DNA from: Comamonadaceae bacterium
GTDB lineage: Bacteria > Pseudomonadota > Gammaproteobacteria > Burkholderiales > Burkholderiaceae_C
Length of the DNA stretch: 64,000 nucleotides
Direction of reading: 5' to 3'
NCBI GenBank assembly: GCA_027486555.1
Contig: JAIXOX010000128.1
Coordinates: 1-64,000, forward strand
Position numbers and translations under genes: made by a program. The notes below the pieces were generated by a model that saw only the letters and a list, made by a program, of their open reading frames with translations, had not been told where the DNA came from and did no database searches. How positions within the stretch are numbered: the stretch's first letter is position 1; the number at the start of each line of letters is the position of its first letter. Shown piece after piece: positions 30,588 to 49,382 of this stretch.

Positions 30588-32147
30588 ATGCATTTGACTT
30601 CAGGATTGCACCGCTCGGTGCAAAAGCACCCCGACAAGACGGCCACGGTCACCGGCCAACGTCGCCAGACTTTTCGGCAACTCGCTCAGCGGGTGGCACA
30701 AACGGCAGGTGCATTGCAGGCGTTGGGTTTGCAGCCGGGAGATCGTTTGTCGGTGTTGGCGCAAAACAGCGACCGCATGATGACGCTGCTGTTGGCCGGT
30801 TGGTGGGCGGGCCTGGTGGTCAACCCGGTCAACACCCGCTGGACCAGCGCCGAGGTGGCCTATGCCCTGCGCGACTGCGCGGCCAGCGCCTTGGCGGTGG
30901 ATGACGCCTTGATCAGCGTGGCTCAGGCGATGGACGCGCTGCCCGACTTGCGCTGCAAGCTGTTCATGGGCGACACGGCGCATGGCACCGAAGTGGCCAC
31001 CCCGGCGGGCTATCAAAACTTGGAGGCGCTGGTGCAAGCTGCCACAGCGATCGAGGACGTGCGCAGCCCGACCGACGCGTTGGCGGCCATCGTCTACACC
31101 GGTGGCACCACGGGCTTTCCCAAGGGCGTGATGCTCTCGCACGGCAATTTTTGGGCCTCGCTGGTGGGGCGGATGGCAGAAATTCCCAATCCACCGCACT
31201 ACGTGACTTTGCTCACCTCGCCTTTGTTCCATGTGGCGGGTCTGGGCCGCATGCTGGGACAGACCCTGGTGGGCGGCACCTGTGTCACCGTGCCCGTTTT
31301 CCAGCCCCGTCTGGTGGTGGAGACCATGGCCCGAGAGGGTGTGTCTGACCTGGTCATTGTGCCCAGCATGCTTCAAATGCTGCTCAACACCGAAGGCTTC
31401 AGCCCGCAGCATCTGCCCCGCCTCGAGCGCATTTTGTGGGGCGCTGCGCCCATCACCTTGCCCCTGCTTGAGCGTGGATTGGCAGCTTTTCCCCAAGTCC
31501 AGTTTGTGCACGCCTATGGCATGACCGAAACCGCTGCGTCGGTGTCGGTGCTGCAGATCGCGCGTGATCCAGCCTTTCTGGCGAGCCAACGCATCCGCTC
31601 GGCTGGCATGGCGGGCTTATCGTCTGAGATCCGCATCGCAGACGCCTTGGGCCAAGAAGTGCCGCCGGGCACCCCGGGTGAAATCCTGGTCCGTGGTCCC
31701 ATGGTCATGCAAGGTTATTGGGGCCGCCCGGAAGAAACCGCCAAAACCCTGCAAGGTGGTTGGTTGCACACGGGCGACGTCGGCACCATGGACGAAGGCG
31801 GCTTTTTGTATGTCGTTGACCGCATCAAAGACATGGTCATCACCGGAGGCGAAAACGTCTATCCCGCCGAAGTCGAAAACGTCCTGAGCAGCCACCCCGC
31901 CGTGGCCGCTTGTGCTGTGATCGGTGTGCCACACGAGAAATGGGGCGAGTTGGTGCATGCCGTTGTCGTGCTCCAGCCCGGCACGCAGGCCAGCGACGCA
32001 GAGCTTTCGGCGCACTGCCACAAGCGCATCAGCGGCTTCAAATGCCCCAAAACTTACGAATTTCGAGCCCAGTTGCCCTTGACGGCAGCGGGCAAAGTCC
32101 TGAAAACCGAACTGCGTCAATCATGGCAATCCAGGAGCGTCTCATGA
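30588..32147 (+). CDS. Acyl-CoA ligase (AMP-forming) 1
   Basis: This is a 519-residue ANL-family acyl-CoA synthetase. The start at 30588 follows AGGAGAC; the upstream in-frame extension to 30450 is not supported. Motifs: A3 IVYTGGTTGFPKGVMLSHGN, the A5 region YGMTETAAS, the hinge D-R-I-K-D-M followed by TGGENVYPAEVE, and the C-terminal LTAAGKVLKTELR with the catalytic lysine. Activates a medium or long-chain or branched acid to its CoA ester. The stop overlaps the racemase-like gene (ATGA), so ligase and racemase are translationally coupled. Confidence 0.9.
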   Translation: MHLTSGLHRSVQKHPDKTATVTGQRRQTFRQLAQRVAQTAGALQALGLQPGDRLSVLAQNSDRMMTLLLAGWWAGLVVNPVNTRWTSAEVAYALRDCAASALAVDDALISVAQAMDALPDLRCKLFMGDTAHGTEVATPAGYQNLEALVQAATAIEDVRSPTDALAAIVYTGGTTGFPKGVMLSHGNFWASLVGRMAEIPNPPHYVTLLTSPLFHVAGLGRMLGQTLVGGTCVTVPVFQPRLVVETMAREGVSDLVIVPSMLQMLLNTEGFSPQHLPRLERILWGAAPITLPLLERGLAAFPQVQFVHAYGMTETAASVSVLQIARDPAFLASQRIRSAGMAGLSSEIRIADALGQEVPPGTPGEILVRGPMVMQGYWGRPEETAKTLQGGWLHTGDVGTMDEGGFLYVVDRIKDMVITGGENVYPAEVENVLSSHPAVAACAVIGVPHEKWGELVHAVVVLQPGTQASDAELSAHCHKRISGFKCPKTYEFRAQLPLTAAGKVLKTELRQSWQSRSVS

Positions 32148-33367
32148 TCAGCACAAGCGCCAGCCCCCCACCCAGCCCCCCACCCAGCCGCCCGCCCAAC
32201 CGCCCGCCCAACCGCCCGCCGCTGCAAGGCGTGCGCGTGCTCGACCTCACCCGCCTGCTGCCCGGCCCCATGTGTACCCTGCACCTGGCCGACCTAGGCG
32301 CCGACGTCATCAAGATCGAAGACTTGGGCGCGGGCGACTACGCCTCGCCTGCGGTGCGCGAAATGCTCAACCGCAACAAGCGCGGCATGCGCCTGGACCT
32401 CAAGCACCCCGAAGGCGTGCAGCTTTTGCTCAAGCTGTGCGAGACCGCCGACGTGCTGGTCGAAGGCTTTCGCCCCGGCGTGATGGCCCGGCTGGGCTTG
32501 GGCTACGACGTGGTCAGGGCTCGCAACCCGCGCCTGGTGTACTGCAGCATCAGCGGCTACGGCCAGACCGGGCCGCTCAGTCAAAAGGCCGGGCACGACC
32601 TGAACTACTGCGGCTATGCCGGGGTGGCCGACCAGGTGGGCACGCCGTCTGGCGAGCTGGCGCTGTCCAACCTGCCCATGGGCGACTTGCTGGGTGGCAC
32701 CATGCCCGCCGTCATGGGCATCCTGGCGGCGCTGTTCGACGCGCAGCGCACGGCTCAGGGCCGCCATGTGGACGTGGCCATCGCCGACGGCGTGCTGGCC
32801 CACGCGGTGATCCCGCTCGCAGGCCTGCACAGCCGGGGCCGCACCCCTTCGCCCGGGGGCGACAAGCTGACCGGGGCGCTGCCCTGCTACGGCCTGTACC
32901 CCACACAAGACGGCCGCTACCTGGCCGTGGGCGCGTTCGAACACAAGTTCTGGGCCAGCTTTTGCACCTTGCTGGGCCGCCCCGACCTGGCCGAGCACCA
33001 CATCCCCAAAACCCAGGCCTTGAACGACTGGGTGCGCCGCGAAGTGTCACAAGCGGTGCAAGCCCACCCCCTGGCCCACTGGGCGCAGCTGCTCGATGGT
33101 GCCGACTGCTGCGTGACCCCCGTGCTCAAGCTCGACGAGGCGCAACAGCTGCCGCACTTCCAGGATCGCGGAATGTGGGTGCAGGTGCAAACCGCGCAGG
33201 GCGAGTCCATGACACAACTGGCCATGCCGGTGCAGATGAGCGGCTACACCTTCGCGGTGCACAGCCCCGCGCCCCTGCAGGGCCAGCACACCCGCGAGGT
33301 GCTGACCGCTGCGGGACTCGATGACGCCGAGATTGATGTTTTATGCCAACGCAAAGTCGTAGGATAG
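32144..33367 (+). CDS. Alpha-methylacyl-CoA racemase-like CaiB/BaiF protein
   Basis: This is a 407-residue class III CoA-transferase superfamily member. The block AGHDLNYCGYAGV with H151 and NLPMGDLLGG with D181 matches the His/Asp pair of alpha-methylacyl-CoA racemases, and the 30-residue spacing equals that of the mycobacterial enzyme (H126/D156). Such enzymes epimerise 2-methylacyl-CoA esters in branched-chain and steroid side-chain oxidation. The N-terminal 27 residues are a Pro/Arg/Asn repeat encoded by a tandem CCCGCCCAA-type DNA repeat and are probably disordered. The start overlaps the ligase stop. Confidence 0.8.
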   Translation: MISTSASPPPSPPPSRPPNRPPNRPPLQGVRVLDLTRLLPGPMCTLHLADLGADVIKIEDLGAGDYASPAVREMLNRNKRGMRLDLKHPEGVQLLLKLCETADVLVEGFRPGVMARLGLGYDVVRARNPRLVYCSISGYGQTGPLSQKAGHDLNYCGYAGVADQVGTPSGELALSNLPMGDLLGGTMPAVMGILAALFDAQRTAQGRHVDVAIADGVLAHAVIPLAGLHSRGRTPSPGGDKLTGALPCYGLYPTQDGRYLAVGAFEHKFWASFCTLLGRPDLAEHHIPKTQALNDWVRREVSQAVQAHPLAHWAQLLDGADCCVTPVLKLDEAQQLPHFQDRGMWVQVQTAQGESMTQLAMPVQMSGYTFAVHSPAPLQGQHTREVLTAAGLDDAEIDVLCQRKVVG

Positions 33368-33422: not shown

Positions 33423-33735
33423 GTAGGTCGGCGGCTTCAGCCCCGACATGAGACCTGCGCCGAAGCGAACCATGTCGGAGCTAAAGCTACCGACCTACGA
33501 AGGCAGTATTTGTAGGTCAGCGGCTTCTGCCCCGACACGCAGCCTGGGCCGAAGCAAACCATGCCGGAGCTAAAGCTACCGACCTACGAAGGCAGTATTT
33601 GTAGGTCAGCGGCTTCTGCCCCGACAAGCAGCCTGAGCCGAAGCCAACCATGTAGGAGCTAAAGCTACCGACCTACGGAGGCGGTATTCGTAGGTCGGCG
33701 GCTTCAGCCCCGACATGAGGCCTGCACCGAAGCCA
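33423..33735. repeat. Tandem array of REP-like elements (family B)
   Basis: Units begin at 33423, 33512, 33601 and 33690, an exact 89-bp period, with the last unit partial. Each has left arm GTAGGTCGGCGGCTTCAGCC and right arm GAGCTAAAGCTACCGACCTA, so the ends form an inverted repeat GTAGGTCGG/CCGACCTAC. Related elements recur at 40418-40800. The array fills most of the 446-bp gap between the racemase-like gene and the AraC regulator. Confidence 0.88.
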
Positions 33736-33813
33736 CCCATGTTGAAATTGAAGGCAAACCCTCCAACAGCTTTAACCTTATTTCTCAAAAACTGAACCTC
33801 TGACAACAGCACC

Positions 33814-34866
33814 ATGAGCCGCCCCCCCATCGCTAAGCCCATTCAGCACACCATCGCCGTCTACCAAGTGGTGCAGATGCTCATGGCCATCGAGGGCGAA
33901 GACGCCCGTGCAGCGGTGCTGCGCCGTGCGGGCATCTCGCCCGCGCTGTTGGAATCACCCCTGGCGCGGGTCACCCAAACCCAATTTGCCCGCCTCATGA
34001 CCGCGCTGGTGCGCCACCACCGCGACGAGTTCTGGGGCCTGGGTTCTGCGCCCTTGCCGCTGGGCTCGTTTGCCGTGTGCTGCCGCATGCTGGTGGGCCA
34101 CCGCAAGCTGGGCGACGCCTTGCGCGCCGGGCTGCGTTTCTACCACGCACTGCTGGTCGATTTTGTGCCCCGCCTGCAGGTCAGCGGCGGCGTGGCCTAC
34201 CTGCGCATGGGCTCGCGCCACCAACTTACCGCCCGGCAGGTCTATGCCGTGCGCGTTTTCATGTTCTTCAGCTACGGCGTCATGTGCTGGCTGGCGGCGC
34301 GGCGCATCCCGGTGGATGACGTGGTCTACCAAGACAGCGACGTGGCCCGCCGCAGCGACGCCTCGCGCCTGTTCCAAGCGCCCATCCACTTGGTCGACGG
34401 TGAATGGGGTTACCGCTTTGACGCCAAGTGGCTCGACCTGCCCGTGGTGCAAAGCCACGAAAGCGTCGAGACCTTTTTGCACGAAGCCCCGGCCTGCCTC
34501 TTGGTCAAGTACCGCGACCAGACCAGCCTGACCGAGCGCATCCGCCGCCTGCTGCGCCGCTACCTGGCCGAAGAAATGCCCTCGCTCGAAACCGTCAGCG
34601 ACATGCTCGCCACCACACCTCAAACTCTGCGCCGTCACCTGCAGCGCGAAGGCCAGGGCTACCAAATGATCAAAGACGCTCTGCGCCGCGACGTGGCCGT
34701 CGAGTTCCTCACCCAGTCTGATTTGCCCCTGCTCGAAGTGGCGGCCCGCGTGGGCTTTTCAGAAGCCAGCACCTTCCACCGAGCCTTCAAAGGCTGGACG
34801 GGCCTGACACCGGGGGCGTACCGGCAGGCGCATAACGAACCGGCTGAAGGCGCAGTGCAGGCCTGA
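33814..34866 (+). CDS. AraC-family transcriptional regulator
   Basis: This is a 350-residue regulator with an N-terminal arabinose-binding-like domain (Arabinose_bd type, about 20-210) and a C-terminal double helix-turn-helix (about 250-345; TPQTLRRHLQREGQGYQMIKD, then LEVAARVGFSEASTFHRAFK). This architecture is common among regulators of lipid and amino-acid catabolism (OruR, MmsR-like). It is flanked by acyl-CoA genes and is a good candidate to control the surrounding catabolic region, though toxin-antitoxin genes follow immediately. Confidence 0.9.
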   Translation: MSRPPIAKPIQHTIAVYQVVQMLMAIEGEDARAAVLRRAGISPALLESPLARVTQTQFARLMTALVRHHRDEFWGLGSAPLPLGSFAVCCRMLVGHRKLGDALRAGLRFYHALLVDFVPRLQVSGGVAYLRMGSRHQLTARQVYAVRVFMFFSYGVMCWLAARRIPVDDVVYQDSDVARRSDASRLFQAPIHLVDGEWGYRFDAKWLDLPVVQSHESVETFLHEAPACLLVKYRDQTSLTERIRRLLRRYLAEEMPSLETVSDMLATTPQTLRRHLQREGQGYQMIKDALRRDVAVEFLTQSDLPLLEVAARVGFSEASTFHRAFKGWTGLTPGAYRQAHNEPAEGAVQA

Positions 34867-34892: not shown

Positions 34893-35222
34893 TCAGTGAT
34901 TCATTCCAAGAATCCGCGCTATGCCTTCTTCGATCTTCGCCATGTCTGTATTTGAAATAGAGCCGATCTTGTCGGCAAGTCGGGCTTTATCGATGGAGCG
35001 GATATATTCACACCGCGCTACTGAACCACCTTTCAAAGCAACATTCAAAAACTCGATGGCGGGTGCTGAGGTCGAGAGTGGAACGACAACCACCGTTTTT
35101 CGTGCCTTGTTGATTGGATTGATGGAGAGAACAACAAAAGGGCGGGTTTTTTGAAGTTCCGAGCCAATGGTCGGATCAAGTCGTGCCCAAAAAACATCAC
35201 CCCGTGCAAGCTCTATGTTCAT
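34893..35222 (-). CDS. MazF/PemK-type toxin
   Basis: This 109-residue protein of the MazF/PemK endoribonuclease family has the hallmarks ARGDVFWARLDPTIGSELQKTRP and the strand VVVVPLSTS. The family cleaves mRNA at short sequence motifs. The start at 35222 overlaps the antitoxin stop (ATGA); an in-frame ATG at 35231 would lengthen it by three residues. The order antitoxin then toxin is the usual one. Confidence 0.88.
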   Translation of the reverse strand: MNIELARGDVFWARLDPTIGSELQKTRPFVVLSINPINKARKTVVVVPLSTSAPAIEFLNVALKGGSVARCEYIRSIDKARLADKIGSISNTDMAKIEEGIARILGMNH

Positions 35223-35494
35223 TTTTGACATAGAGCGAACAGTTTGTCCGTATCAAAGGTTTCGTTGGGATCAAGTCCGTCCATGAGGGTTGATTCGAGT
35301 TCGCTCGATTCCTCGGGGTTGGCACGGTCAAACGCCTCTGCCTTGAGGGCCAGTTCGTACATGTGTTCATCCAGATTGGGAAGGTTTTGCTCAAGAAGCT
35401 TGCAAATAAAACTGCTCCGTTGACGAGCAGGCACGGCATCACGAAAACGCCGTGCAACCTCTGTGGGGAGGCGGATAAGGACTTGAGTGGTCAT
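35219..35494 (-). CDS. Antitoxin of the MazF-type toxin
   Basis: This 91-residue acidic protein starts with TTQVLIRLPTEVARRFRDAVPARQRSSFI, a ribbon-helix-helix-like N-terminus suited to DNA binding and autoregulation. The acidic C-terminal half (RANPEESSELESTLMDGLDP) would neutralise the toxin. A perfect 16-bp palindrome lies 15 bp upstream of its start. Confidence 0.82.
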   Translation of the reverse strand: MTTQVLIRLPTEVARRFRDAVPARQRSSFICKLLEQNLPNLDEHMYELALKAEAFDRANPEESSELESTLMDGLDPNETFDTDKLFALCQK

Positions 35495-35509
35495 GATGGT
35501 GGATATTAG

Positions 35510-35525
35510 ATATTGATATCAATAT
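35510..35525. promoter_or_regulatory. Palindromic operator of the MazF-type module
   Basis: ATATTGATATCAATAT is a perfect 16-bp palindrome just upstream of the antitoxin start on the minus strand, in an otherwise GC-rich region. It fits an autoregulatory operator bound by the ribbon-helix-helix antitoxin. Confidence 0.65.
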
Positions 35526-35720
35526 TATTGTATGGAAGGAGCCAGCAAAGTCAATTCTTAATGCACAAACGCTGGGTAAGAGCCAAAGTCAGCAAGCCCT
35601 GAATCGAAAGAACCACGAGCGATAGCCTGGCCGTCGGTAACCCGGTGCATTGATTCAATTTACAAACGGATACGACAGAAGTGGAACCGGTGTGGGTCAG
35701 CGCGGATAGCATTGCCAACC

Positions 35721-36110
35721 ATGACAAATCTCGAACTCAACGAAGCCTTGCTGGATGCGGTGGCCGACCATGACCTTGCCGCCGTTGAACAATGCCTGAA
35801 AGACGGTGCCGACATTCTTTATGTCCGCACCCTGGATGAAGACTATGGTGCGGTTCAGCCCATCACGGTGCTGAGCATGGTGTTGTTCCGATGGTCCGAC
35901 AGCAGGCTGGAAGCGCCTGACTTCTTGGCATTCATCGAAATCACCGCGCTTCTTTTGGCACATGGCGCGGACACACGCCATGCCATCGCAATGGCTGGGC
36001 AAAATTACAGCCTGCACGATGTCAGATTGGCCGATGAAAACGACTTTGGAATGCCACCTTGGCAAATGATCGCCAGGGTACACGCGCAGCGTTACCCTGA
36101 CGGGTGTTGA
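35721..36110 (+). CDS. Small ankyrin-repeat-like protein
   Basis: This 129-residue protein (ATG at 35721, alternative at 35712) shows two ankyrin-like helical stretches: NEALLDAVADHDLAAVEQCL followed by KDGAD, and FIEITALLLAHGADTRHA. Only about two partial repeats are present. No signal peptide or membrane segment. It sits alone between two toxin-antitoxin modules of opposite orientation and may be cassette-like cargo. The function is unknown. The 195 bp before it hold no other gene. Confidence 0.65.
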   Translation: MTNLELNEALLDAVADHDLAAVEQCLKDGADILYVRTLDEDYGAVQPITVLSMVLFRWSDSRLEAPDFLAFIEITALLLAHGADTRHAIAMAGQNYSLHDVRLADENDFGMPPWQMIARVHAQRYPDGC

Positions 36111-36132
36111 GTGGGGATGGAGGTCTTACCGC

Positions 36133-36435
36133 TCAAACTTCATCATCTTGATAACCCGCTTCGCGCTGGTGCCGAACCCGGGCCACCATGACCCGGTCCA
36201 ACACATCGTCCCATGCGTAGCGCGCCAGATAGCCGCTGCGCCTGCGGGAGATGATCAGTTCACGCAAACCACCTTCCACCGGGCGACCTATGCCGGGTTG
36301 GTGCGTCAGCACTTGCAAGGCATCCAGGATGAAATCGAGCAGTTCCCCAGCCAATGGGTCTTCGGATTCGTGCAAAAACGTTTCCAGCCGGACCAAATCC
36401 TGGAATGCTGCGTGACTCAGAAATACGGTGCTCAC
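36133..36435 (-). CDS. ParE/RelE-superfamily toxin
   Basis: This 100-residue protein has the ParE-like layout SHAAFQDLVRLETFLHE, then LTHQPGIGRPVEGGLRELII and YLARYAWDDVLDRVMVARVRHQRE. ParE members inhibit gyrase and RelE members cut mRNA on the ribosome; the H-Q-R-E ending of the core fits ParE. The start is 3 bp after the stop of the upstream antitoxin gene. Confidence 0.85.
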   Translation of the reverse strand: MSTVFLSHAAFQDLVRLETFLHESEDPLAGELLDFILDALQVLTHQPGIGRPVEGGLRELIISRRRSGYLARYAWDDVLDRVMVARVRHQREAGYQDDEV

Positions 36436-36438
36436 ACC

Positions 36439-36753
36439 TCAGCCCATTTTTTTCGCTTGCAAAGGTGCAGGCGGCGCGCTTTTTCCCTGACGATGTTCTT
36501 TCAGTTGAGAAAAATAGAGACGAACATCGTCCAGCGCATGACCTGTGCCGGTGGACTTCATGACGGCCAGCGCATCGGCCGAATCTTGTGCAAATGTTTG
36601 CCGCAAGCGCTTGCGCTGCGCCGCATCGGCCAGCGTGCTCACCATGAAAGCGTGCAGGCTCATGCCCATTTGCTTGGCATCTTCTTCAAGCTGCAGCTTG
36701 AGTGCGCCGGGCAGTTTCAGACTGGTGGGGATGTTGGCAGGAACAGCGGGCAT
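36439..36753 (-). CDS. Antitoxin of the ParE/RelE-type toxin
   Basis: This 104-residue protein, starting at 36753 with a GGAG site on the minus strand, has a ribbon-helix-helix-like region (TSLKLPGALKLQLEEDAKQMGM, then SLHAFMVSTLADAAQ) and a basic C-terminus. It is encoded directly before the ParE-like toxin, the usual antitoxin-first order. Confidence 0.8.
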   Translation of the reverse strand: MPAVPANIPTSLKLPGALKLQLEEDAKQMGMSLHAFMVSTLADAAQRKRLRQTFAQDSADALAVMKSTGTGHALDDVRLYFSQLKEHRQGKSAPPAPLQAKKMG

Positions 36754-36865
36754 GACAAGCTCCATTCATGGGTAGTCAGAAGTGACTACTTGGGTCAATT
36801 TTACACAGCTCGAACCGGCTGAGGGCGATGCGATGGCTTGATTGCCGGTAACCGACGCGTGTCCC

Positions 36866-37090
36866 TTATTCAGCAAATATCAGCAGGGCATCGTTGCCCT
36901 GGGCCGCCACGGCAGCTGCGGCCACTGACCAAGCAGCGCGCACCGCCATGGCGGGTTTGCTCAAGATGATCTGCCCGTTTTCCACCACGATGTTGGCAGT
37001 GGTTTGATCTTCCAGTCCGGCTTGTGCCAGCAGCGCTTTGGGCAGCACCACGCCCTTGCTGTTCCCGATCGTTTTGATGGCAATTTCCAT
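36866..37090 (-). CDS. AbrB/SpoVT-type antitoxin without an adjacent toxin
   Basis: This 74-residue protein starts MEIAIKTIGNSKGVVLPKAL, a swapped-hairpin AbrB domain typical of MazE/PemI antitoxins. The start at 37090 is preceded by GGGGAG. No toxin follows: the next gene in this direction is the unrelated antitoxin at 36753, 112 bp away. The C-terminus ends at ALLIFAE, slightly shorter than paired relatives. It appears to be a solitary antitoxin left after toxin loss. Confidence 0.8.
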   Translation of the reverse strand: MEIAIKTIGNSKGVVLPKALLAQAGLEDQTTANIVVENGQIILSKPAMAVRAAWSVAAAAVAAQGNDALLIFAE

Positions 37091-37111
37091 GAAGCTCCCC
37101 AGTTGCAACAA

Positions 37112-37325
37112 TGTTGAATATTGATCGACGTGCCGACAAGTAAGAGTTGGCGCATTGTGAAACTAAAAAAAGGATTTCACCCGATGCCTGCCGTCAAGCG
37201 CACAAGGAACCAGCTGACATGGCATGGCACACACACCTCCTCTCGCTGACAGCAGAACAAAGCGCAGACAGAGAATGAAACTGAGTTGTTGACGATGTTG
37301 CAGGCTGGGTGTGGACTTGACGCGA
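37112..37325. other. Intergenic region with no recognised gene
   Basis: No convincing frame, repeat or hairpin was seen between the solitary antitoxin and the Phd-type operator. Confidence 0.5.
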
Positions 37326-37337
37326 ACCAAATTTGGT
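37326..37337. promoter_or_regulatory. Palindromic operator of the Phd/YefM-type module
   Basis: ACCAAATTTGGT is a perfect 12-bp palindrome 34 bp before the antitoxin ATG, in an AT-rich leader. It fits the autoregulatory operator of a Phd/YefM antitoxin. Confidence 0.6.
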
Positions 37338-41689: not shown

Positions 41690-42841
41690 ATGGACAGCAT
41701 CCTCACCTTCCCCCGCAGCGTGTTCCGTGAAGACCACGAAATGCTGCGCACCACCGTGCGCCGCTTTTTGGAGCGCGAATGCAAACCCCGTCAGGCCCAG
41801 TGGGACAAAGACGGCAAGGTCGACCGCGAGACCTGGCTCAAGGCCGGGCGCGAAGGCCTGCTCTGCGCCACCATGGACCCCGAGTGGGGCGGCGGTGGCG
41901 GTGACTTCGGCCATGCGGCCGTGATCGTCGAAGAGATCGGCCGCTCCGGTGTGAGCGGCTTGGGCTTTGGCCTGCACTCGGATGTGGTGGCACCCTACAT
42001 CGAGCGCCTGGGCACGCCAGAACAAAAGGCCAAATGGCTCCCCCAATGCGCCACGGGTGAGGTGATCCTGGCGATTGCCATGAGCGAGCCTGGCGCTGGC
42101 AGTGACCTCAAAGCCATCCGCACCACGGCCCGCCGTGAGGGTGACGAGTACGTCATCAACGGCGCCAAAACTTTCATCTCGAATGGCCTGAACTGCGACC
42201 TGGTCGTGGTGGTGGCCAAGACCGAGCCCGAGCTGGGTGCCAAGGGCGTGTCGCTGATCTTGGTCGAGGCCGACCGCGCCGGTTTTCGCAAAGGCCGCAA
42301 GCTCGACAAAATGGGCCAAGAAGCGGCCGACACCGCCGAGCTGTTTTTTGAAGACGTGCGCGTGCCTGTGACCAACATTCTGGGCGAAGAGAACAAGGGC
42401 TTTGCCTACCTGATGCAAGAGTTGGCACAAGAGCGCTTTGTGATCGCGTTGGGCGCGGCCGCCAAGATGGAAGCCATGTTCGACGAAACCGTGCGCTACA
42501 CCAAGGAGCGCGTGGTGTTTGGCAAGCCGCTGTTTGATTTTCAGAACACCCGCTTCAAGTTGGCCGAAATCAAAGTGCGCACCACCGCCGTGCGCATGAT
42601 GGTCGACCAGTATCTGGGCGAACACCTGCGCCGCAAACTCACCGTGCAAGAAGGCGCCATGGCCAAACTCTTTGCCACCGAAGAGCTGGGCAAAGCACTG
42701 GACGAGTTGCTGCAGCTCTATGGCGGCTATGGCTACATGATGGAATACCCGATCACCCGCGCCTTTGTCGACTCGCGTGTGACCCGCATTTACGGCGGCA
42801 CCAGCGAGGTCATGAAAGAGTTGATCTCCAGAAGCCTGTGA
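41690..42841 (+). CDS. Acyl-CoA dehydrogenase (LCAD/IVD-type active site)
   Basis: This is a 383-residue FAD-dependent acyl-CoA dehydrogenase. FAD and substrate segments include AIAMSEPGAGSDLKAIRTTA and TFISNGLNCDLVVVV. The usual C-terminal catalytic Glu (YEG) is Gly here (IYGGTSE), while helix G has AQERFVIA with E248 in the position used by long-chain and isovaleryl-CoA dehydrogenases, so E248 is the likely base. That placement is common for branched or bulky acyl groups. The start at 41690 overrides a longer overlapping frame. Its stop overlaps the next start. Confidence 0.9.
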   Translation: MDSILTFPRSVFREDHEMLRTTVRRFLERECKPRQAQWDKDGKVDRETWLKAGREGLLCATMDPEWGGGGGDFGHAAVIVEEIGRSGVSGLGFGLHSDVVAPYIERLGTPEQKAKWLPQCATGEVILAIAMSEPGAGSDLKAIRTTARREGDEYVINGAKTFISNGLNCDLVVVVAKTEPELGAKGVSLILVEADRAGFRKGRKLDKMGQEAADTAELFFEDVRVPVTNILGEENKGFAYLMQELAQERFVIALGAAAKMEAMFDETVRYTKERVVFGKPLFDFQNTRFKLAEIKVRTTAVRMMVDQYLGEHLRRKLTVQEGAMAKLFATEELGKALDELLQLYGGYGYMMEYPITRAFVDSRVTRIYGGTSEVMKELISRSL

Positions 42842-44556
42842 TGACCCCATCGTCCCTGCCCTTCTGGCCCAAAGGGGTTCCGCGCACGCTGAGCCTGCCA
42901 CAGGTGCCGCTCACGCATTACGTGCAGGTCGCGGCCGAGCGCTTTCCGAACAAGCCGGCCGTGATCTTTTGTGGCAGCACGCTGACTTACGCGGCGCTGC
43001 TCGCACGCGTGGAGGCGCTGGCCGGTTACCTTGTGCAGCGCCTGGGTGTGCAGCGCGGCGACCGGGTCTTGTTGATGAGCCAAAACTGCCCACAATACGT
43101 GGCGGCCTATTACGGCATCATGCGCGCCGGGGCCGTGGTGGTGCCGGTCAACGCCATGTGCACGCCAAGCGAAATCCGCTACTACCTGCAAGACAGCGGT
43201 GCTCGCGTGGCCATGGTGGCGCAAGAGTTGCTGCCCCAAGTCATGCCGCTGTTGCAAGCGGGCTACCCGGATGCATTGCAAGCTGTACTTGTGCATGCGT
43301 ATTCAGAAGGCCTGCCCGCGCAGCCCGTCAGTGACGAAGTGCCGGATGAGGTGCCTGATGTGGTGTTGGCCCCGCGCCAGTGGCCCGATGCCCCGGGCCT
43401 GCACGGGCTCGAAGACGCCATCGCACAGGCCTTGCCCGCGCCCGCAGAGCACCCCCACAGCGACGACCTGTGTGTGCTGCCCTACACCTCGGGCACCACC
43501 GGCCACCCCAAGGGCTGCATGCACACCCACGCCACGGTGCTGGCGTCCAACATGGCTGCGCAGGTCTGGCGCAGCATGCACATGGACTCGGTGTTTTTGG
43601 CTGTTGCGCCTTTGTTCCACATGCTGGGCATGCAGGGCGGCCTCAACGTGCCGATCACGCTGGGTGCCACCGTGGTCATGTTGCCACGCTGGCACGCGGC
43701 ATCAGCGGCGCGGCTGATCGAGCAACACCGCGTCACGACCTGGTCGGCACCCCCCGCCATGCTGATCGATTTCTTTGCCAGCCCGGCCGCTGCGCAACGA
43801 GACCTGAGCAGCTTGTCGACCTTGGCGGGTGGTGGCGCGGCCATGCCGGAGACGGTGGCGAACTTGCTGCAAACGCGTTTTGGCATCACCTACAACGAGG
43901 CCTACGGCATGACCGAGACCGCCTCATTTTTGATGTGCAATCCCCCAGCACGCGGCAAGCGTCAGTGCCTGGGCGTCATCACCCCTGGCGTGGACGCCCG
44001 CATCGTGGACCCGGAAACTCTGCGCGAGTTGCCCGTGGGCGAGGTGGGTGAACTGGTCACGCGTGGCGCGCAACTCATGCGCGGCTATTGGCAAAACGAG
44101 CAGGCCAACCAGTCCTCCTTTTTTGAGCTGGACGGCCAAATGTTTTTCCGCACAGGCGACTTGGCCAGTGTCGATGAAGAGGGCTACTTTTTCATGCGCG
44201 ACCGCCTCAAGCGCATGGTCAACGTCTCGGGCTTCAAGGTCTGGCCCGCCGAGGTGGAAAACACCTTGTACGAACACCCGGCGGTGCACGAGGCCTGCGT
44301 GATCGCCGTGCCCGACAACAAGCGCGGCGAAAACGTGATGGCCCTCTTGGTGCTCAAGCCTGCCTTCAAAGGCCAAGTCACCGAGCAAGACCTCATCGAC
44401 TGGAGCCGCGAGCACATGGCCGCCTACAAAACCCCACGCATCGTGCGTTTTGTGGACACCCTGCCCAAGTCGGGCACCGGCAAGATCCTCTGGCGACAGT
44501 TGCAAGAGCAAGAACGCGACCGCCTTGCTGCACCTCCATCGCAGGAGATCACATGA
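42841..44556 (+). CDS. Acyl-CoA ligase (AMP-forming) 2
   Basis: This 571-residue ANL-family ligase has A3 LPYTSGTTGHPKGCMHTHAT, YGMTETASF, the hinge MRDRLKRMVNVSGFKVWPAE and C-terminal LPKSGTGKILWRQL with the catalytic lysine. It starts at 42841 in a TGATG overlap with the acyl-CoA dehydrogenase stop. It resembles fatty-acid or aryl-acid CoA ligases of degradation clusters. This is one of three such ligases between 30 and 54 kb, which suggests several entry substrates or steps. Confidence 0.9.
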   Translation: MTPSSLPFWPKGVPRTLSLPQVPLTHYVQVAAERFPNKPAVIFCGSTLTYAALLARVEALAGYLVQRLGVQRGDRVLLMSQNCPQYVAAYYGIMRAGAVVVPVNAMCTPSEIRYYLQDSGARVAMVAQELLPQVMPLLQAGYPDALQAVLVHAYSEGLPAQPVSDEVPDEVPDVVLAPRQWPDAPGLHGLEDAIAQALPAPAEHPHSDDLCVLPYTSGTTGHPKGCMHTHATVLASNMAAQVWRSMHMDSVFLAVAPLFHMLGMQGGLNVPITLGATVVMLPRWHAASAARLIEQHRVTTWSAPPAMLIDFFASPAAAQRDLSSLSTLAGGGAAMPETVANLLQTRFGITYNEAYGMTETASFLMCNPPARGKRQCLGVITPGVDARIVDPETLRELPVGEVGELVTRGAQLMRGYWQNEQANQSSFFELDGQMFFRTGDLASVDEEGYFFMRDRLKRMVNVSGFKVWPAEVENTLYEHPAVHEACVIAVPDNKRGENVMALLVLKPAFKGQVTEQDLIDWSREHMAAYKTPRIVRFVDTLPKSGTGKILWRQLQEQERDRLAAPPSQEIT

Positions 44557-44677: not shown

Positions 44678-45469
44678 ATGCGCATCCCCTTGAGTTTCAA
44701 AGGCCAGTCGGTGTTTGTGGCCGGTGGCAGCAGCGGCATCAATCTGGGCATCGCCACCGCGTTTGCGCAGGCCGGGGCCAAGGTGGCGATTGCCAGCCGC
44801 AACGCCGAGCGCGTGGCCCAAGCCGTCGAGCAGTTGCGCCAACACGGCACGCAGATTGAAGGTTACAGCGCCGATGTGCGCGACGCCCCTGGCATTGCCG
44901 CCGTGCTGCAGCAGGCGCGTGACGCCATCGGCCCGTTTGATGTGTTGATTTCTGGTGCGGCAGGCAACTTTTTGGCACCCGCTTTGGGCATGTCGGCCAA
45001 TGGCTTCAAGACGGTGGTGGACATTGACCTGAATGGCACTTTCCATGTGCTGCGTGCAGGCTACGAACACCTGCGCCGCCCGGGTGCTTGCGTCATCAAC
45101 ATCTCGGCACCGCAGGCCTTCAACCCCACCAAGCTGCAAGCCCATGTGTGCGCGGCCAAGGCGGGCGTGGACATGCTCACCCGCGTGCTGGCCATGGAGT
45201 GGGGGCCCGAAGGCGTGCGCGTCAATTCCATCGTGCCCGGCCCGATCGGTGACACCGAAGGCATTCGCCGTTTGGCACCCACGCCCGAAGCGCTGCAACG
45301 CATGACGCAGTCCGTGCCCTTGCAGCGCATGGGCCGGGTGGAAGAGATCGCCGACATGGCGCTGTTTTTGGCGTCACAGCACGCCGCATTTGTCACCGGT
45401 GCCATCCTGGCGGTGGACGGTGGCAGTTCCCTGGCCGGTGGCCGGGATTACTCAGGAGCCTTGACATGA
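44678..45469 (+). CDS. 2,4-dienoyl-CoA reductase-like SDR
   Basis: This 263-residue SDR has the cofactor loop GGSSGINLG. The classical YxxxK tyrosine is absent: the segment is KLQAHVCAAKAGVDMLTR, with V157 in the Tyr position and K161 retained. That, and the following WGPEGVRVNSIVPGPIGDTE, match the peroxisomal/bacterial 2,4-dienoyl-CoA reductase branch, which works without that Tyr. It would reduce dienoyl-CoA made from unsaturated acids with NADPH. The stop overlaps the enoyl-CoA hydratase start (ATGA). Confidence 0.78.
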   Translation: MRIPLSFKGQSVFVAGGSSGINLGIATAFAQAGAKVAIASRNAERVAQAVEQLRQHGTQIEGYSADVRDAPGIAAVLQQARDAIGPFDVLISGAAGNFLAPALGMSANGFKTVVDIDLNGTFHVLRAGYEHLRRPGACVINISAPQAFNPTKLQAHVCAAKAGVDMLTRVLAMEWGPEGVRVNSIVPGPIGDTEGIRRLAPTPEALQRMTQSVPLQRMGRVEEIADMALFLASQHAAFVTGAILAVDGGSSLAGGRDYSGALT

Positions 45470-46278
45470 CCGACAACACCCTTCAATCGACAGCACTCCA
45501 ATTCGAGGTGCTTGACCAAGTCGCCACCCTGACCTTCAACAGCCCGACCAAGCGCAATGCGCTTGAATCTGCAATGCGTGAAGGTTTGGTGCTGGCGCTG
45601 CGCCACATTCAGCAAAACAAAGACATCCGCGCCGTGGTGCTGACTGGGGCTGGAGGTCACTTTTGCGCGGGTGGTGATTTGAAAAACATGGCGACGGTCC
45701 AGCATGAAAACGGTGCTTGGCTCAGCCGCATGCAGACGCTGCACGAGTGGTTACAAATATTGCTGACTCTTGACCGTCCAGTCATTGCCGCCGTCGATGG
45801 CGCAGCCGCCGGGGCGGGCTTCAGCCTGGCGCTGTCGGCCGACTTCGTGCTGGCCACGCCGCGTGCCTGGTTCAACATGTCCTTCCTCAAGGTTGGGCTG
45901 GTGCCTGATGTGGGTGCGCTCTACACCTTGCCGCGTGTGGTGGGCGTGCAGCGCGCCAAGGAAATCATGCTCTCGGCCCGTGACATCAGCGCACAAGAGG
46001 CCTTGCGACTGGGCATCGTGATGGAATTGCATGAACCTGAGCAATTGCTGGCCCGCGCACAGGCCATGGCGCGCAGCTTTGTGGGCGCGTCGCCCACAGC
46101 GGTGTCGCTCATCAAGCGCAGTTTGGGCAGCGCTTTGGGCGGCGGGCTGCAAGACATGCTGACGGCCGAGGCACAGGCGCAAGCTTTGGCCGCAGGCACC
46201 GCCTATCACCGCGATGCCGTAGGGCGGTTTCTGAACAAGCAGCCGCTCTTGTTTGCTTGGCCAGCCCACAAAGACTGA
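45466..46278 (+). CDS. Enoyl-CoA hydratase/isomerase family protein
   Basis: This 270-residue crotonase-fold protein has the oxyanion-hole segment GHFCAGGDLKNMA, then DGAAAGAGFSLALSADFVLA. The acidic residue sits in KVGLVPDVGALY, a PaaG-like arrangement with Asp rather than the paired Glu of classic hydratases, so isomerase activity moving double bonds is at least as likely as hydration. It starts in an ATGA overlap with the dienoyl-CoA reductase-like gene, which fits joint handling of unsaturated intermediates. Confidence 0.87.
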   Translation: MTDNTLQSTALQFEVLDQVATLTFNSPTKRNALESAMREGLVLALRHIQQNKDIRAVVLTGAGGHFCAGGDLKNMATVQHENGAWLSRMQTLHEWLQILLTLDRPVIAAVDGAAAGAGFSLALSADFVLATPRAWFNMSFLKVGLVPDVGALYTLPRVVGVQRAKEIMLSARDISAQEALRLGIVMELHEPEQLLARAQAMARSFVGASPTAVSLIKRSLGSALGGGLQDMLTAEAQAQALAAGTAYHRDAVGRFLNKQPLLFAWPAHKD

Positions 46279-46318
46279 GGTGTTCTGGTGTGGGAGCTGT
46301 GTTCTGTGAGGGGTTTTT

Positions 46319-46635
46319 TGTGGGAGCGGCGCCCCCGCCGCGATGCAGTGCCCGCAGACCACCACCATCGCCCCGGGGGCGGGGCTCCTACAAAGAGCGT
46401 TGTCTCCCAAGTCATGTATTCCGAATTGGGCACGGCGTTTTGTGGGAGTGGCGCCCCCGCCGCGATGCAGCGCCTGCAGCCCACCACCATCGCCCCGAGG
46501 GCGGGGCTCCTACAAAGAGCGTTGTCTCCCAAGTCCGGTCTTCCGATTTGGGCATGTCGCTCTATGGGAGCGGCGCCCCCGCCGCGATGCAGCGCCTGCA
46601 GACCGCCACCATCGCCCCGAAGGCGGGGTGCCCAC
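46319..46635. repeat. Tandem array of three REP-like elements (family A)
   Basis: Units start at 46319, 46441 and 46563, an exact 122-bp period. Each has a 74-bp inverted-repeat element plus a conserved 48-bp linker (AAGAGCGTTGTCTCCCAAGT...). The array fills most of the 559-bp gap between the enoyl-CoA hydratase and the next SDR gene. Frames translating through it are not genes. Confidence 0.88.
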
Positions 46636-46837
46636 AACAAGCTGCATCATCCCGAGTGCGGGGCACCTGCAGATGAAGCATCCCAAACCAAGGGCAATCC
46701 CTGAGTTAGGCAATCCGAAAGACCCGGTTCAGCATTCGAAGATTGTTCAGAATCACTGAACGCCGCAAGATACATCAACCCCCAGTGGGGTGACGCTGGC
46801 CCGCCAGACGTTCGCCCCACGACCTGAAGGAGAAAAA

Positions 46838-47758
46838 ATGAGCAAAGCCCGATTGGTTGAAGACAAAGTCGTCGTGGTCACAGGCGCAGGCGGCGGCATT
46901 GGACGCGACATCGCGCTGGCCATGGCGCGTGAGGGCGCCAAGGTGGTGGTCAACGACATCGGCGCTTCGGTGTCGGGCGAAGGCCAGGACGCAGGCCCCG
47001 CGCAAAAAGTCGTGGACGAAATCCAAGCCATGGGCGGTCAGGCTGCTGCCAACACCGACAGCGTGTCTGACGCCGCAAGCGCTGCCCGCATCATCCAAAC
47101 GGCCATCGACAGCTTTGGCCGCATCGACGTGGTGGTCAACAACGCCGGCATTTTGCGCGACCGCTTCTTCCACAAAATGAGCATGGACGAGTGGGATGCG
47201 GTGCTCAAGGTGCACTTGTACGGCGCGTTTTACGTCAGCCGCGCAGCCGCCCCGCACTTCAAGGAACAAGAAAGCGGCAACTACATCCACATGACGTCCA
47301 CCTCGGGGCTGGTGGGCAATTTTGGTCAGGCCAACTACTCGGCGGCCAAGCTGGGTGTGACCGCGCTGTCCAAGTCGATCGCGCTCGACATGCAAAAGTT
47401 CAATGTGCGTTCCAACTGCATCTCGCCTTTTGCCTGGAGCCGCATGATCGGCTCGATCCCGACCGAGACGCCCGAAGAGCAGGCCCGCGTGGAGCGCATC
47501 AAGCAGATGACGCCCGCCAAGATAGCGCCCATGGCCGTGGCCTTGGCCAGCGACGCCTCGGCCCATGTGAACGGCCAGGTCTTTGCCGTGCGCAACAACG
47601 AAATCTTTTTGATGAGCCAGCCGCGCCCGATCCGCTCGGTGCATCGCAGCGAAGGCTGGACGCCGCAGTCGGTCCTGGACCAAGCCATGCCCGCGCTCAA
47701 GTCGAGCTTCTTTGACTTGGAGCGTTCGGGCGATGTGTTCAGCTGGGACCCGATCTGA
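46838..47758 (+). CDS. MFE-2-like SDR (3-hydroxyacyl-CoA dehydrogenase)
   Basis: This 306-residue SDR has TGAGGGIGRD (cofactor loop, 15-24), NNAGILRDRFFHKMS and the active-site Y167/K171 (YSAAK) with TSTSGLVGNFGQ before it. This pattern, including NDIGASVSGEGQDAGPAQKVV, is typical of the dehydrogenase domain of peroxisomal multifunctional enzyme 2 and its bacterial homologues in branched-chain and steroid degradation. It starts at 46838 after AAGGAGAAAAA. The DUF35-thiolase fusion follows after 10 bp. Confidence 0.87.
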   Translation: MSKARLVEDKVVVVTGAGGGIGRDIALAMAREGAKVVVNDIGASVSGEGQDAGPAQKVVDEIQAMGGQAAANTDSVSDAASAARIIQTAIDSFGRIDVVVNNAGILRDRFFHKMSMDEWDAVLKVHLYGAFYVSRAAAPHFKEQESGNYIHMTSTSGLVGNFGQANYSAAKLGVTALSKSIALDMQKFNVRSNCISPFAWSRMIGSIPTETPEEQARVERIKQMTPAKIAPMAVALASDASAHVNGQVFAVRNNEIFLMSQPRPIRSVHRSEGWTPQSVLDQAMPALKSSFFDLERSGDVFSWDPI

Positions 47759-47768
47759 GGAAAATACG

Positions 47769-49382
47769 ATGAGCGACAACGCAAAAGGGGTGCTCGCGCA
47801 GCACCAAGCCGCCCTCGATGAAGGCCGCTTCATGGTCCAGCATTGCAAGGGCTGTAACCAACACATTTACTTCCCGCGTGAGGTCTGCCCGCATTGCGGC
47901 AGCGACGACCTCGCGCTGGTGGCCCCCACGGGCTTGGGCACGGTGTATTCCGTGACCACCGTGCGCCGCAAGCCCGACGCGGGTGGCGACTACAACGTTT
48001 GCCTGATCGACCTGGACGAAGGCGTGCGCCTGATGAGCCGCGTGGACATGGACCCTGTCGACGCCGTGCAGGTGGGTCAGCGTGTGCAGGCCCGTGTGGT
48101 GGTCGACAAGGGCCAAGGCATGGTGGTGTTTGACGCGGTCAGCACAGCGGCAACAGTGGCCAAGCCCGTGCCCCGAGGCCCCGCCGCATCGGCAGCGGTG
48201 CATTCGTCCACGGGCCTGAAAGCCTTGCGCGGCAGCGCCGCCATTGCGGGCGTGGCCACCTTTGGTTGTGGCGAAGCCACGGGTTTTACCGAGATGGAAG
48301 TGCTGGCCCGCGCTGCGCGCGCAGCCGTGGCCGATGCTGGCCTGAAGATGAGCGACATCGACGGCCTGTGCACCGCCAGTGTGCTCTCCACCATGTGGCC
48401 CATGCCCGTGACCGAGTATTTGGGTATCAACCCCCGTTACATCAACGGCACCATGCTCGGCGGCTCCAGCTTTGTGGCGCACATTTTGCCCGCCATGATG
48501 GCTTTGCAGTCGGGCCAGTGCAACGCGGTGCTGGTCTGCTACGGCAGCACGCAGCGCACCTCCACCTTTGGCCGCGCCGAGATCGCGCAGGCGCGCCGCG
48601 TGATGGACCCGCAGCCTTACGAAACCCCCTACGCCCCCATGCAGCCGCTCAGCGCCTACGCGCTGGCCACGCGTCGGCACATGCACCAGTACGGCACCAC
48701 CCGCCGCCAGCTGGCCGAAGTGGCCGTGGCCGCCCGCGCCTGGGCGCAGCGCAACCCCGAAGCCTTCATGCGCGATCCGCTGTCGATCGACGATGTGCTC
48801 AAGGCCCGCATGGTGTCTGACCCCTTGTCCGTGCGCGACTGCTGTTTGGTCACCGACGGCGGTGGTGCCTTTGTGCTGGTGCGCGCCGACAGTGCGCGTG
48901 ACCTGCCCAAAAAGCCGGTCTACGTGCTGGGCAACGCCACCGCCAATTGGAACCGCCAGATTTCGGCCATGCACGACCTGACCGTGACTGCCGCCAGCCA
49001 GTCTGGCCGCGAAGCCTTTGCCATGGCGGGCCTCACGCCTGCCGACATGGGCGTGGTGGAGCTGTACGACGCGTTCACCATCAACACCTTGCTTTTCCTT
49101 GAAGACCTGGGCTTTTGCAAAAAAGGCGAAGCCGGTGCCTTTGTGGAAGGCGGCGGCATCGCGCCCGGTGGCCACCTGCCGGTCAACACCAATGGCGGCG
49201 GCCTGTCGTGCACGCACCCGGGCATGTACGGCATCTTCACCGTGATCGAAGCCGTGCGCCAGTTGCGCGGCGAAGGCGGCGAGCGCCAAGTGCAAGGCGT
49301 GCAGACCGCGCTGGCCCATGGCAACGGCGGCACGCTGTCGAGCCAGTCCACGGCCATCCTCGGCACTTTTGAAACTTTGTAA
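47769..49382 (+). CDS. DUF35 (OB-fold/Zn ribbon)-Ltp2-like thiolase-fold fusion
   Basis: This 537-residue protein fuses two domains that are often separate. Residues 1-125 are a rubredoxin-like Zn ribbon (C26, C29, C40, C43) plus OB fold (DUF35, as in ChsH2). Residues 150-537 are a lipid-transfer thiolase-fold domain. The thiolase cysteine is replaced (TMLGGSS), HDC becomes ELYDAF (Y433), and GHPxGATG becomes CTHPGMYG (Y487). Ltp2-type proteins with such tyrosines act as aldolases in steroid side-chain degradation, in complex with a DUF35 partner. A retro-aldol role is therefore likely. Confidence 0.82.
   Translation: MSDNAKGVLAQHQAALDEGRFMVQHCKGCNQHIYFPREVCPHCGSDDLALVAPTGLGTVYSVTTVRRKPDAGGDYNVCLIDLDEGVRLMSRVDMDPVDAVQVGQRVQARVVVDKGQGMVVFDAVSTAATVAKPVPRGPAASAAVHSSTGLKALRGSAAIAGVATFGCGEATGFTEMEVLARAARAAVADAGLKMSDIDGLCTASVLSTMWPMPVTEYLGINPRYINGTMLGGSSFVAHILPAMMALQSGQCNAVLVCYGSTQRTSTFGRAEIAQARRVMDPQPYETPYAPMQPLSAYALATRRHMHQYGTTRRQLAEVAVAARAWAQRNPEAFMRDPLSIDDVLKARMVSDPLSVRDCCLVTDGGGAFVLVRADSARDLPKKPVYVLGNATANWNRQISAMHDLTVTAASQSGREAFAMAGLTPADMGVVELYDAFTINTLLFLEDLGFCKKGEAGAFVEGGGIAPGGHLPVNTNGGGLSCTHPGMYGIFTVIEAVRQLRGEGGERQVQGVQTALAHGNGGTLSSQSTAILGTFETL

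Follow-up and report, generated by a model that had tools for sequence, protein, structure and literature searches.

The locus analysed here raises the question of which acid is degraded by a set of bacterial genes whose products resemble the enzymes of peroxisomal branched-chain β-oxidation, and by which reaction its carbon chain is finally cleaved. The genes lie in a 64,000-nt stretch of DNA (the window) from Comamonadaceae bacterium (GCA_027486555.1, contig JAIXOX010000128.1, positions 1 to 64,000, forward strand), a host near the freshwater genus Limnohabitans; the closest named relative is a Limnohabitans (96% identity for the aldolase-like protein O described below). We consider it reasonably probable that they form a catabolic unit for coenzyme A (CoA)-activated methyl-branched unsaturated acids, likely isoprenoid, that would combine (R)-specific β-oxidation with aldolytic cleavage and perhaps lead into methylsuccinate. 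A preliminary description of the window had placed the system at 32144–49382. The genes reported there were borne out, but the unit is larger, spanning about 30,450–61,262 on the + strand from the ligase gene B through the LysR gene Y; a nest of genes at 34893–37967 that is no part of it had been included, and an attached itaconate/methylsuccinate operon had been missed. With the 3.4-kb interval between D and E excluded, the unit holds 23 genes (B–L and N–Y) for CoA-ester chemistry, transport, and regulation, and gene overlaps of 4 nt occur at four pairs (B–C, I–J, K–L, and W–X).

The genes that precede O are as follows (PDB, Protein Data Bank; SDR, short-chain dehydrogenase/reductase).

30450–32147, + strand: B, AMP-forming acyl-CoA ligase (Pfam AMP-binding; the true start may be internal)
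32144–33367, + strand: C, alpha-methylacyl-CoA racemase-like protein, 407 aa (H151/D181/E266; best PDB matches AMACR/MCR)
33814–34866, + strand: D, AraC-family regulator with a ligand-binding domain (Pfam PF12625 and HTH_18)
38242–39435, + strand: E, SCP2-type thiolase, catalytically complete (PRK08256, 687 bits; cut-off 436)
39494–39937, + strand: F, MaoC/hot-dog subunit without the catalytic His (FAS1_DH, 152 bits; MFE-2_hydrat-2_N, 31 bits)
39948–40367, + strand: G, catalytic MaoC subunit with the motif GDHNPIHVDTDFA (MaoC_dehydratas)
40855–41682, + strand: H, SDR, 3-hydroxyacyl-CoA dehydrogenase-like, S-Y-K intact (best PDB match 2et6, 224 bits)
41690–42841, + strand: I, acyl-CoA dehydrogenase of the LCAD/IVD type (Gly at the MCAD Glu position; QELAQER loop)
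42838–44556, + strand: J, long-chain acyl-CoA ligase (PRK08314, 810 bits; cut-off 705)
44678–45469, + strand: K, 2,4-dienoyl-CoA reductase-like SDR without the YxxxK Tyr (PRK07576, 401 bits; cut-off 321)
45466–46278, + strand: L, crotonase, enoyl-CoA isomerase-like (both hydratase Glu missing; GLVPD Asp kept)
46838–47758, + strand: N, MFE-2-type (3R)-hydroxyacyl-CoA dehydrogenase, SDR (best PDB match 2et6)

The best solved relative of E was the peroxisomal SCP2-thiolase type-1 of zebrafish (6hsj; 462 bits). The motifs NNNCS, HDCF, GHP, and GGAC of E were intact, with the same residues in 18/18 sequences at ≥55% identity, and the zebrafish chain has Ala at the GGAC Cys position when aligned with E. 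Tyr replaced the catalytic His of F in 23/23 sequences, while the hydratase-2 motif (D/N/H) of G was found in 23/23; the best solved relatives were HadA-like for F and MaoC-like/HadB for G. Judged by these residues, the F/G asymmetry resembles the inert N-terminal and active C-terminal halves of MFE-2 hydratase 2. The best match of H, the (3R)-hydroxyacyl-CoA dehydrogenase 2et6, which we take to be yeast peroxisomal MFE-2, was also that of N (365 bits over two domains), followed by 17β-HSD4 (222 bits), with peroxisomal MFE-2 lower. K matched human peroxisomal 2,4-dienoyl-CoA reductase (DECR2, 4fc6) at 206 bits versus 156 bits for the mitochondrial enzyme. The catalytic Tyr of YxxxK was absent from K in 12/12 sequences (Val in 11 and Ala in 1), a loss that is a feature of DECR. 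Since L lacks both hydratase Glu residues and keeps the GLVPD Asp (S/F/D in 16/16 sequences), it is more likely enoyl-CoA isomerase-like. I carries Gly where P, described below, has the MCAD-type Glu; the positions of the catalytic Glu in acyl-CoA dehydrogenases and crotonases and the base loop of I are those we presume. Both I and P matched acyl-CoA dehydrogenase families best, and acyl-CoA oxidase models gave only 29–35 bits.

Taken as a set, E–L and N look like an (R)-specific β-oxidation spiral with auxiliary double-bond enzymes. The enzymes listed in the preliminary description were all recovered at their positions, among them an SCP2-type thiolase with complete catalytic residues (38242–39435), a two-subunit MaoC hydratase (39494/39948), an MFE-2-like SDR whose best match is 2et6 (46838–47758), a DECR-like SDR without the YxxxK Tyr (44678–45469), and an LCAD/IVD-type dehydrogenase (41690–42841). 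Its view of a bacterial counterpart of peroxisomal branched-chain β-oxidation agrees with the solved relatives: C comes closest to AMACR/MCR, and E, K, and N to peroxisomal or MFE-2-type proteins. The families for racemisation, (R)-hydration, 3R-dehydrogenation, thiolysis, and dienoyl reduction are common to the unit and the peroxisomal system (AMACR, MFE-2, SCPx, and DECR2). However, MFE-2 and SCPx are fused proteins in peroxisomes and separate genes in the unit, acyl-CoA oxidase is replaced by dehydrogenases, the MaoC pair is nearer to HadAB-like solved proteins, and an aldolase and a methylsuccinate block are added.

For C, a placement among CoA-transferases had been named in the preliminary description as grounds for refuting its proposal. 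Among solved proteins, AMACR/MCR ranked first (217 bits), followed by succinate-hydroxymethylglutaryl (HMG) CoA-transferase (187 bits). The catalytic triad of MCR is, in the numbering we assume, H126/D156/E241; the residues of C aligned with it are H151 and D181, with the 30-residue spacing noted earlier for the gene at 32144, and additionally E266. The H/D/E triad was conserved in 16/16 distinct C sequences at ≥55% identity from all loci collected. Among the 56 distinct relatives below 55% identity, 29 had Y/D/N and four had H/D/E, and these four are cluster genes of Rhodococcus (L158 and L160) and Sagittula/Roseovarius (L116 and L139). The cluster's own CoA-transferase V, in contrast, has neither the GHD His nor the Glu. 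By the PDB ranking, the triad, and the contrast with V, a CoA-transferase assignment was rejected, and the check came out on the racemase side: C looks like an alpha-methylacyl-CoA racemase, with predicted racemisation of 2-methylacyl-CoA. Growth on polyisoprene and related isoprenoids is lost in racemase mutants, as stated with reference to others in the available text of PMC8538451.

Among 60 genomes of the genus (that of the window included), an E ortholog (≥90% identity) was found in 17, a C ortholog (≥78%) in 16, and both in 14; C and E were on one contig in 13 of these 14, 2.4–14.2 kb apart. Of the 12 linked genomes besides the window, 11 were compared (G046 was left out). Because they had been selected for C–E linkage, only the remaining genes are independent evidence. 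The order C-D-E-F-G-H-I was kept in 11/11, and B was next to C in 10/11. Two Variovorax megaplasmids carry C-D-B-K-E-F-G-H-I-J-L-O (B at only 46–47% identity), and among 10 Rhodococcus records matched by E, the two plasmids viewed both combine E-F-G-H-I with a ligase and a C that bears the triad. A racemase-like gene with the triad also adjoins a DUF35 and aldolase gene pair and a MaoC gene in Sagittula and Roseovarius. The racemase, the thiolase, the two hydratase subunits, the SDR, and the dehydrogenase are one module in the genus, Variovorax, and the Rhodococcus plasmids, where by gene order they belong together as a set and not to unrelated operons. The Sagittula and Roseovarius plasmid clusters (L116 and L139) are near-identical; besides the DUF35 and aldolase pair, they hold three CaiB-type genes (one with the triad), electron transfer flavoprotein genes, a transglutaminase-like gene, and a branched-chain ABC transporter.

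The terminal cleavage depends on how O is understood. O and the three features that follow it are listed here.

47769–49382, + strand: O, probable aldolase with a thiolase fold and a fused DUF35 domain of C4 zinc ribbon and OB (Gly in place of the Cys, Y433-D-A-F, H483-P)
49401–50567, + strand: P, acyl-CoA dehydrogenase with the MCAD-position Glu
50613–52617, + strand: Q and R, two TctC-type solute-binding proteins
52621–54162, + strand: S, acyl-CoA ligase

The zinc ribbon of O has the pattern CX2CX10CX2C. O matches PRK06158, a subfamily annotated as thiolase, at 675 bits (cut-off 421). The solved proteins nearest to it by sequence and fold were 4u4e, CtSal, and TcLtp2, and the fold search, which used an AlphaFold2 model built from 34 sequences (mean pLDDT 76, pTM 0.68, low-confidence loops), placed peroxisomal SCP2-thiolase lower. 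According to the available text of PMC12329534, the catalytic dyads are Tyr302/Cys304 in CtSal and Tyr294/Tyr344 in TcLtp2, CtSal has Gly at the thiolase Cys position, and Cys304 of its YDCY motif is essential. O retains the DUF35 partner and the Tyr base of the Ltp2 motif YDHF, with Ala in place of the His of that motif, and the His of the thiolase HP motif. At the position of the second catalytic Tyr344 of Ltp2, which is Gln352 in Sal, the pairwise alignments place His483. Most loci with O were found with six peptides free of these residues, and whole-protein searches supplied those added from plasmids and genomes. After reduction of 102 matches to 94 distinct homologs, Gly was present in 94, Tyr in 94, Ala in 92, and His in 91, with the complete set in 91/94; the exceptions are two remote paralogs with YDCF, the only bearers of a Cys at the position of Sal Cys304, and one truncated match. 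O is therefore a probable aldolase, Sal/Ltp2-like by sequence, of a separate subfamily, and this subfamily would represent a third catalytic arrangement among aldolase-like proteins annotated as thiolase. No description of the residue set YDAF/HP or of the gene cluster was found in the open-access literature searched. L115 (11257–12381) and L068 (− strand, 5790–6935) each encode a second thiolase-fold paralog that has Gly in place of the Cys and the motif YDCF; this motif is near the YDCY/YDCF pattern of Sal and SLP proteins given in passages of PMC12329534.

Compared with Sal–Shy (9myr) and Ltp2–ChsH2 (6ok1), O shares the thiolase fold with a DUF35 partner and the Tyr base in YDxF/YDxY, and with Sal the Gly in place of the nucleophilic Cys (stated for CtSal). 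It differs in having YDAF and His483, and its DUF35 domain is fused to the aldolase and not, as in Sal–Shy, to a MaoC domain. The Sphaerobacter thermophilus ‘putative thiolase’ 4u4e is also alike (359 bits), being 47% identical to O when the folds are aligned and sharing the pattern YD-F...HP, with YDSF there; 4u4e and PRK06158 are named as thiolases, whereas O and its homologs are without the thiolase Cys. The ‘DUF35-Ltp2 fusion’ of the preliminary description accordingly stands as a fusion of DUF35 and a thiolase fold but not as Ltp2 in the strict sense, the second catalytic residue being unlike that of both Ltp2 and Sal. The aldolase step it proposed is favoured by inference from the residues and from Sal and Ltp2 as sequence and fold relatives.

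O might instead be another Cys-less thiolase-fold enzyme (a decarboxylase, an acyl-transfer scaffold, or a 3-ketoacyl-CoA hydrolase) working with N, which we regard as rather unlikely. Among the recognised neighbours of O in flanks of up to 10 kb, N was the most frequent (31/80 loci), P being near O in 24/80, and N is of a 3-hydroxyacyl-CoA dehydrogenase type that a retro-aldolase does not need; the retained HP His and a residue set matching neither Sal nor Ltp2 point the same way. However, the Tyr base and the Gly for Cys are common to proven aldolases (again, the Gly is stated for CtSal), no solved relative of known function is closer to O in sequence or fold than Sal and Ltp2, and 4/6 of the annotated plasmid contexts viewed have MaoC hydratase genes in the vicinity of the O relative. 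Four short clusters (L007, L010, L012, and L047) read F-G-L-N-O-P and lack H–K between G and L; in L010, L012, and L047, F is not immediately preceded by E, and the contig of L007 begins 0.8 kb before F. The hydratase F/G thus seems to accompany the putative aldolase O, much as ChsH1–ChsH2 accompanies Ltp2 according to PMC12502768.

Among 102 homolog rows, in which several loci appear twice, 15 were fused to DUF35, 72 were split into neighbouring genes, and 15 were undecided. All 15 fused rows were at ≥88% identity, and two of them are the window itself. The DUF35–aldolase fusion is, as the collected sequences indicate, recent and confined to those at ≥88% identity. The fusion itself was rejected as the key novelty since the genes are mostly adjacent elsewhere.

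Downstream of S lies the block that had been missed in the preliminary description.

54442–55323, + strand: T, itaconyl-/mesaconyl-C4-CoA hydratase homolog (Ich, MaoC; 46% to the P. aeruginosa copy)
55362–56522, + strand: U, methylsuccinyl-C4-CoA dehydrogenase homolog (Mcd; 75% to the P. aeruginosa copy)
56674–57855, + strand: V, class III CoA-transferase (Ict; 70% to the P. aeruginosa copy)
57996–59348, + strand: W, MmgE/PrpD, methylsuccinate isomerase homolog (Msi; 60% to the P. aeruginosa copy)
59345–60220, + strand: X, citramalyl-CoA lyase homolog (Ccl), CitE-like (47% to the P. aeruginosa copy; RipC, 143 bits, below the cut-off of 375)
60348–61262, + strand: Y, LysR regulator of the methylsuccinate block (50% to the P. 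aeruginosa copy)

T–X and Y match the Pseudomonas aeruginosa plasmid copy of the ich/mcd/msi/ict/ccl cluster one-to-one at 46–75% identity, so that Ich, Mcd, Msi, Ict, and Ccl occur together, and no NCBIfam model scored above its cut-off for any of T–X. The functions follow the assignments in the available text of PMC12290011, i.e., itaconyl-CoA hydratase (T), methylsuccinyl-C4-CoA dehydrogenase (U), itaconate CoA-transferase (V), methylsuccinate isomerase (W), and citramalyl-CoA lyase (X). T–Y are likewise one-to-one with the itaconate/methylsuccinate cluster of Cupriavidus necator and Pseudomonas, as far as described in the accessible parts of PMC12290011 and PMC9875883. The P. aeruginosa plasmid copy differs in the order T-U-VOC-W-V-X, whereas the unit has T-U-V-W-X without a VOC gene, and in the window the cluster forms the tail of a branched-chain β-oxidation cluster. 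At least two of T–X were near O in 13/80 loci, among them the long Limnohabitans clusters, Rhodoferax L023 without E–L, and Pseudorhodoferax L020 and Castellaniella L030 with other gene orders. In addition to these 13, the same was observed in two further genomes of the order (L129 and L135) and in Cupriavidus campinensis (T, U, and W).

Under the catabolic unit that we favour, with the order of steps inferred from enzyme families, the ligases B and J would activate the acid to its CoA ester, the racemase C would set the α-methyl configuration, the dehydrogenase I would produce the 2-enoyl-CoA, and the asymmetric hydratase F/G would add water. The SDR H (and N) would then oxidise the 3R-hydroxyl, and the SCP2-thiolase E would cleave off acetyl- and propionyl-CoA, while K and L (dienoyl reductase and enoyl isomerase) would remove pre-existing double bonds. 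At a branched β-carbon, where a 3-keto group is impossible, hydration by F/G would give a tertiary alcohol, which O could split in a retro-aldol reaction into a ketone or aldehyde and acetyl- or propionyl-CoA, in analogy to the final round of sterol side-chain degradation. Tyr433 would serve as the base and His483 as the acid, and the fused DUF35 would take the place of a separate ChsH2 or Shy partner. More weakly, part of the carbon may reach methylsuccinate or another branched C5 diacid, which T–X would convert to pyruvate and acetyl-CoA. A more far-reaching version seems distinctly unlikely to us, namely a complete aldolytic route for isoprenoid acids via a Tyr/His dyad aldolase that yields free methylsuccinate of either configuration. 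There the β-methyl block would be opened neither by α-oxidation, as in peroxisomes, nor by carboxylation, as in Atu/Liu; an aldolase frees carbonyl products, and methylsuccinate would therefore be free, which would explain the attached CoA-transferase and isomerase.

The substrate is probably an unsaturated methyl-branched acid of isoprenoid/terpenoid type, as judged from the gene content. Within the unit, K and L for double bonds and C for α-methyl groups are indirect signs of isoprenoids. The preliminary description had left the choice between an isoprenoid, a bile-acid-like, and another methyl-branched acid; the bile-acid-like option found no support, and an isoprenoid or methyl-branched acid is favoured. 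A strict cluster for steroid, sterol, or bile-acid side chains would account for the enzyme types, which are those of the sterol C17 side-chain pathway (racemase, SCP2-thiolase, MaoC pair, 17β-HSD4-like SDR, and DUF35 aldolase). However, no HsaA, the marker of the 9,10-seco ring pathway, was found above the cut-off of 450 in the 92%-complete genome of the host (two weak matches, 48 and 25 bits), the unit has no MaoC–DUF35 fusion as in Shy, no ring-cleavage gene was found among the part of the window genes scanned, and O is without the second catalytic residue of Ltp2 or Sal, so that this explanation is very improbable. An ibuprofen thiolase/DUF35 idea was dropped since no ring dioxygenase is in the unit.

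The acyclic terpene (Atu/Liu) pathway possibly shares the substrate class. In Pseudosulfitobacter, a relative of E (67%) belongs to a cluster that also encodes AtuA and contains two acyl-CoA carboxylase gene sets, and a relative of O in Polaromonas JS666 lies beside two carboxyltransferases, a biotin carboxylase, an HMG-CoA lyase, and a 2,4-dienoyl-CoA reductase. A convergent operon lies next to the unit in this genome and in G007; in this genome, it starts at 63183–63956 and continues past the window end (L165), encoding a class III CoA-transferase, AtuA with a ferredoxin-like domain, and a biotin carboxylase with a biotinyl domain; in G007 (L166), it extends to a crotonase, an acyl-CoA dehydrogenase, and a carboxyltransferase. 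The unit differs from Atu/Liu in having no biotin-dependent carboxylase, and in the proposed route the β-methyl branch would yield to hydration followed by aldol cleavage.

Several observations weigh against one unit acting on isoprenoid acids. Saturated isoprenoids lead by carbon parity to methylmalonyl-CoA and not to methylsuccinyl-CoA, barring an extra step. Family scans found no oxygenase, alcohol dehydrogenase, or aldehyde dehydrogenase among the genes of the unit. The isoprenoid evidence is slight: in the annotated plasmid contexts viewed, carboxylases were near O in 2/6, AtuA was near O in 0/6, and AtuA was near E in 1/3. AtuA is present in 53/60 genus genomes regardless, and among the 14 genomes with both C and E, it lay on the cluster contig within 40 kb of E in four (G000, G007, G021, and G022), 79 kb off in G013, and on other contigs in nine. 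Among 100 relatives, 16 had a close racemase (E ≤ 1e-140), and all of these belong to the genus of the window. At the order level, W occurred in 27 of 200 genomes, O (E ≤ 1e-130) in 20, and both in 15; of these 15, O and W were within 15 kb in two and on different contigs in 13, in a survey of draft genomes with the best 7–8 candidates per genome scored. In Variovorax, the β-oxidation module (B–L) and O have no T–X within 15 kb of them, and in Cupriavidus, O is accompanied by T, U, and W while E–L are lacking; the modules are separable there, and therefore no single pathway is forced.

It is thus possible, if doubtful, that two or three independent catabolic operons lie side by side, B–L for branched-chain acids, N–S for the aldolase, and T–X for itaconate/methylsuccinate. 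Besides the separation just described, T–X is known as a stand-alone operon from the available text of PMC12290011, and the unit has a separate regulator at either end (AraC and LysR). However, the blocks are consecutive on one strand in Limnohabitans L005, L008, and L009, and consecutive with a single opposite-strand gene between them in L021 and L025; the O–T–X linkage also persists without E–L (L023) and in rearranged form (L020, L030, L129, L135, and L141). O is a shared node of two modules that are also able to live apart.

Several features in and around the unit were not assigned to it. D and E are separated at 34893–37967 by toxin-antitoxin-like open reading frame (ORF) pairs, with family names judged by eye. 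This nest was rejected as a member, as the gap between the AraC and thiolase genes ranges from ~0.2 to ~12 kb across the 11 same-genus genomes (~12 kb between D and E in G021); with such variation in length, this gap is therefore an insertion hot-spot within an otherwise fixed gene order. The ORF at 46343–46759 is probably spurious because it sits in 122-nt tandem repeats and has no family match. A TRAP transporter at 25392–29290 was not included since it is present in 2/11 other same-genus loci; it has a TAtT (T-component) gene and a fused DctQ–DctM protein. Three intergenic tandem repeat arrays of three copies each lie within the cluster at 33423–33741, 40412–40870, and 46316–46681 (units of 89, 153, and 122 nt), and REP-like palindromes (TGTAGGAGCGGCGCCC...) occur in several of its intergenic spaces. 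HipA_C-domain genes flank the catabolic region, one per side (21633–22955 and 61442–62776).

We hold with moderate confidence that the system is a bacterial version of a known pathway type, with a putative aldolase subfamily and a possible methylsuccinate link that can both be tested. The gene set, found on plasmids of two phyla, may serve as a bacterial model for AMACR/SCPx/MFE-2 chemistry. The widespread DUF35-linked thiolase-fold family that is annotated as thiolase, lacks the Cys, and carries a Tyr/His pair would comprise probable non-steroid aldolases, possible biocatalysts for C–C bonds. According to PMC12290011, the origin of methylsuccinate in the environment had been unclear before the discovery of itaconate reduction in the gut. 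The joining of methylsuccinate genes to a branched-chain degradation cluster makes the question of this origin testable, and the complete aldolytic route, if true, would be a natural source of environmental methylsuccinate.

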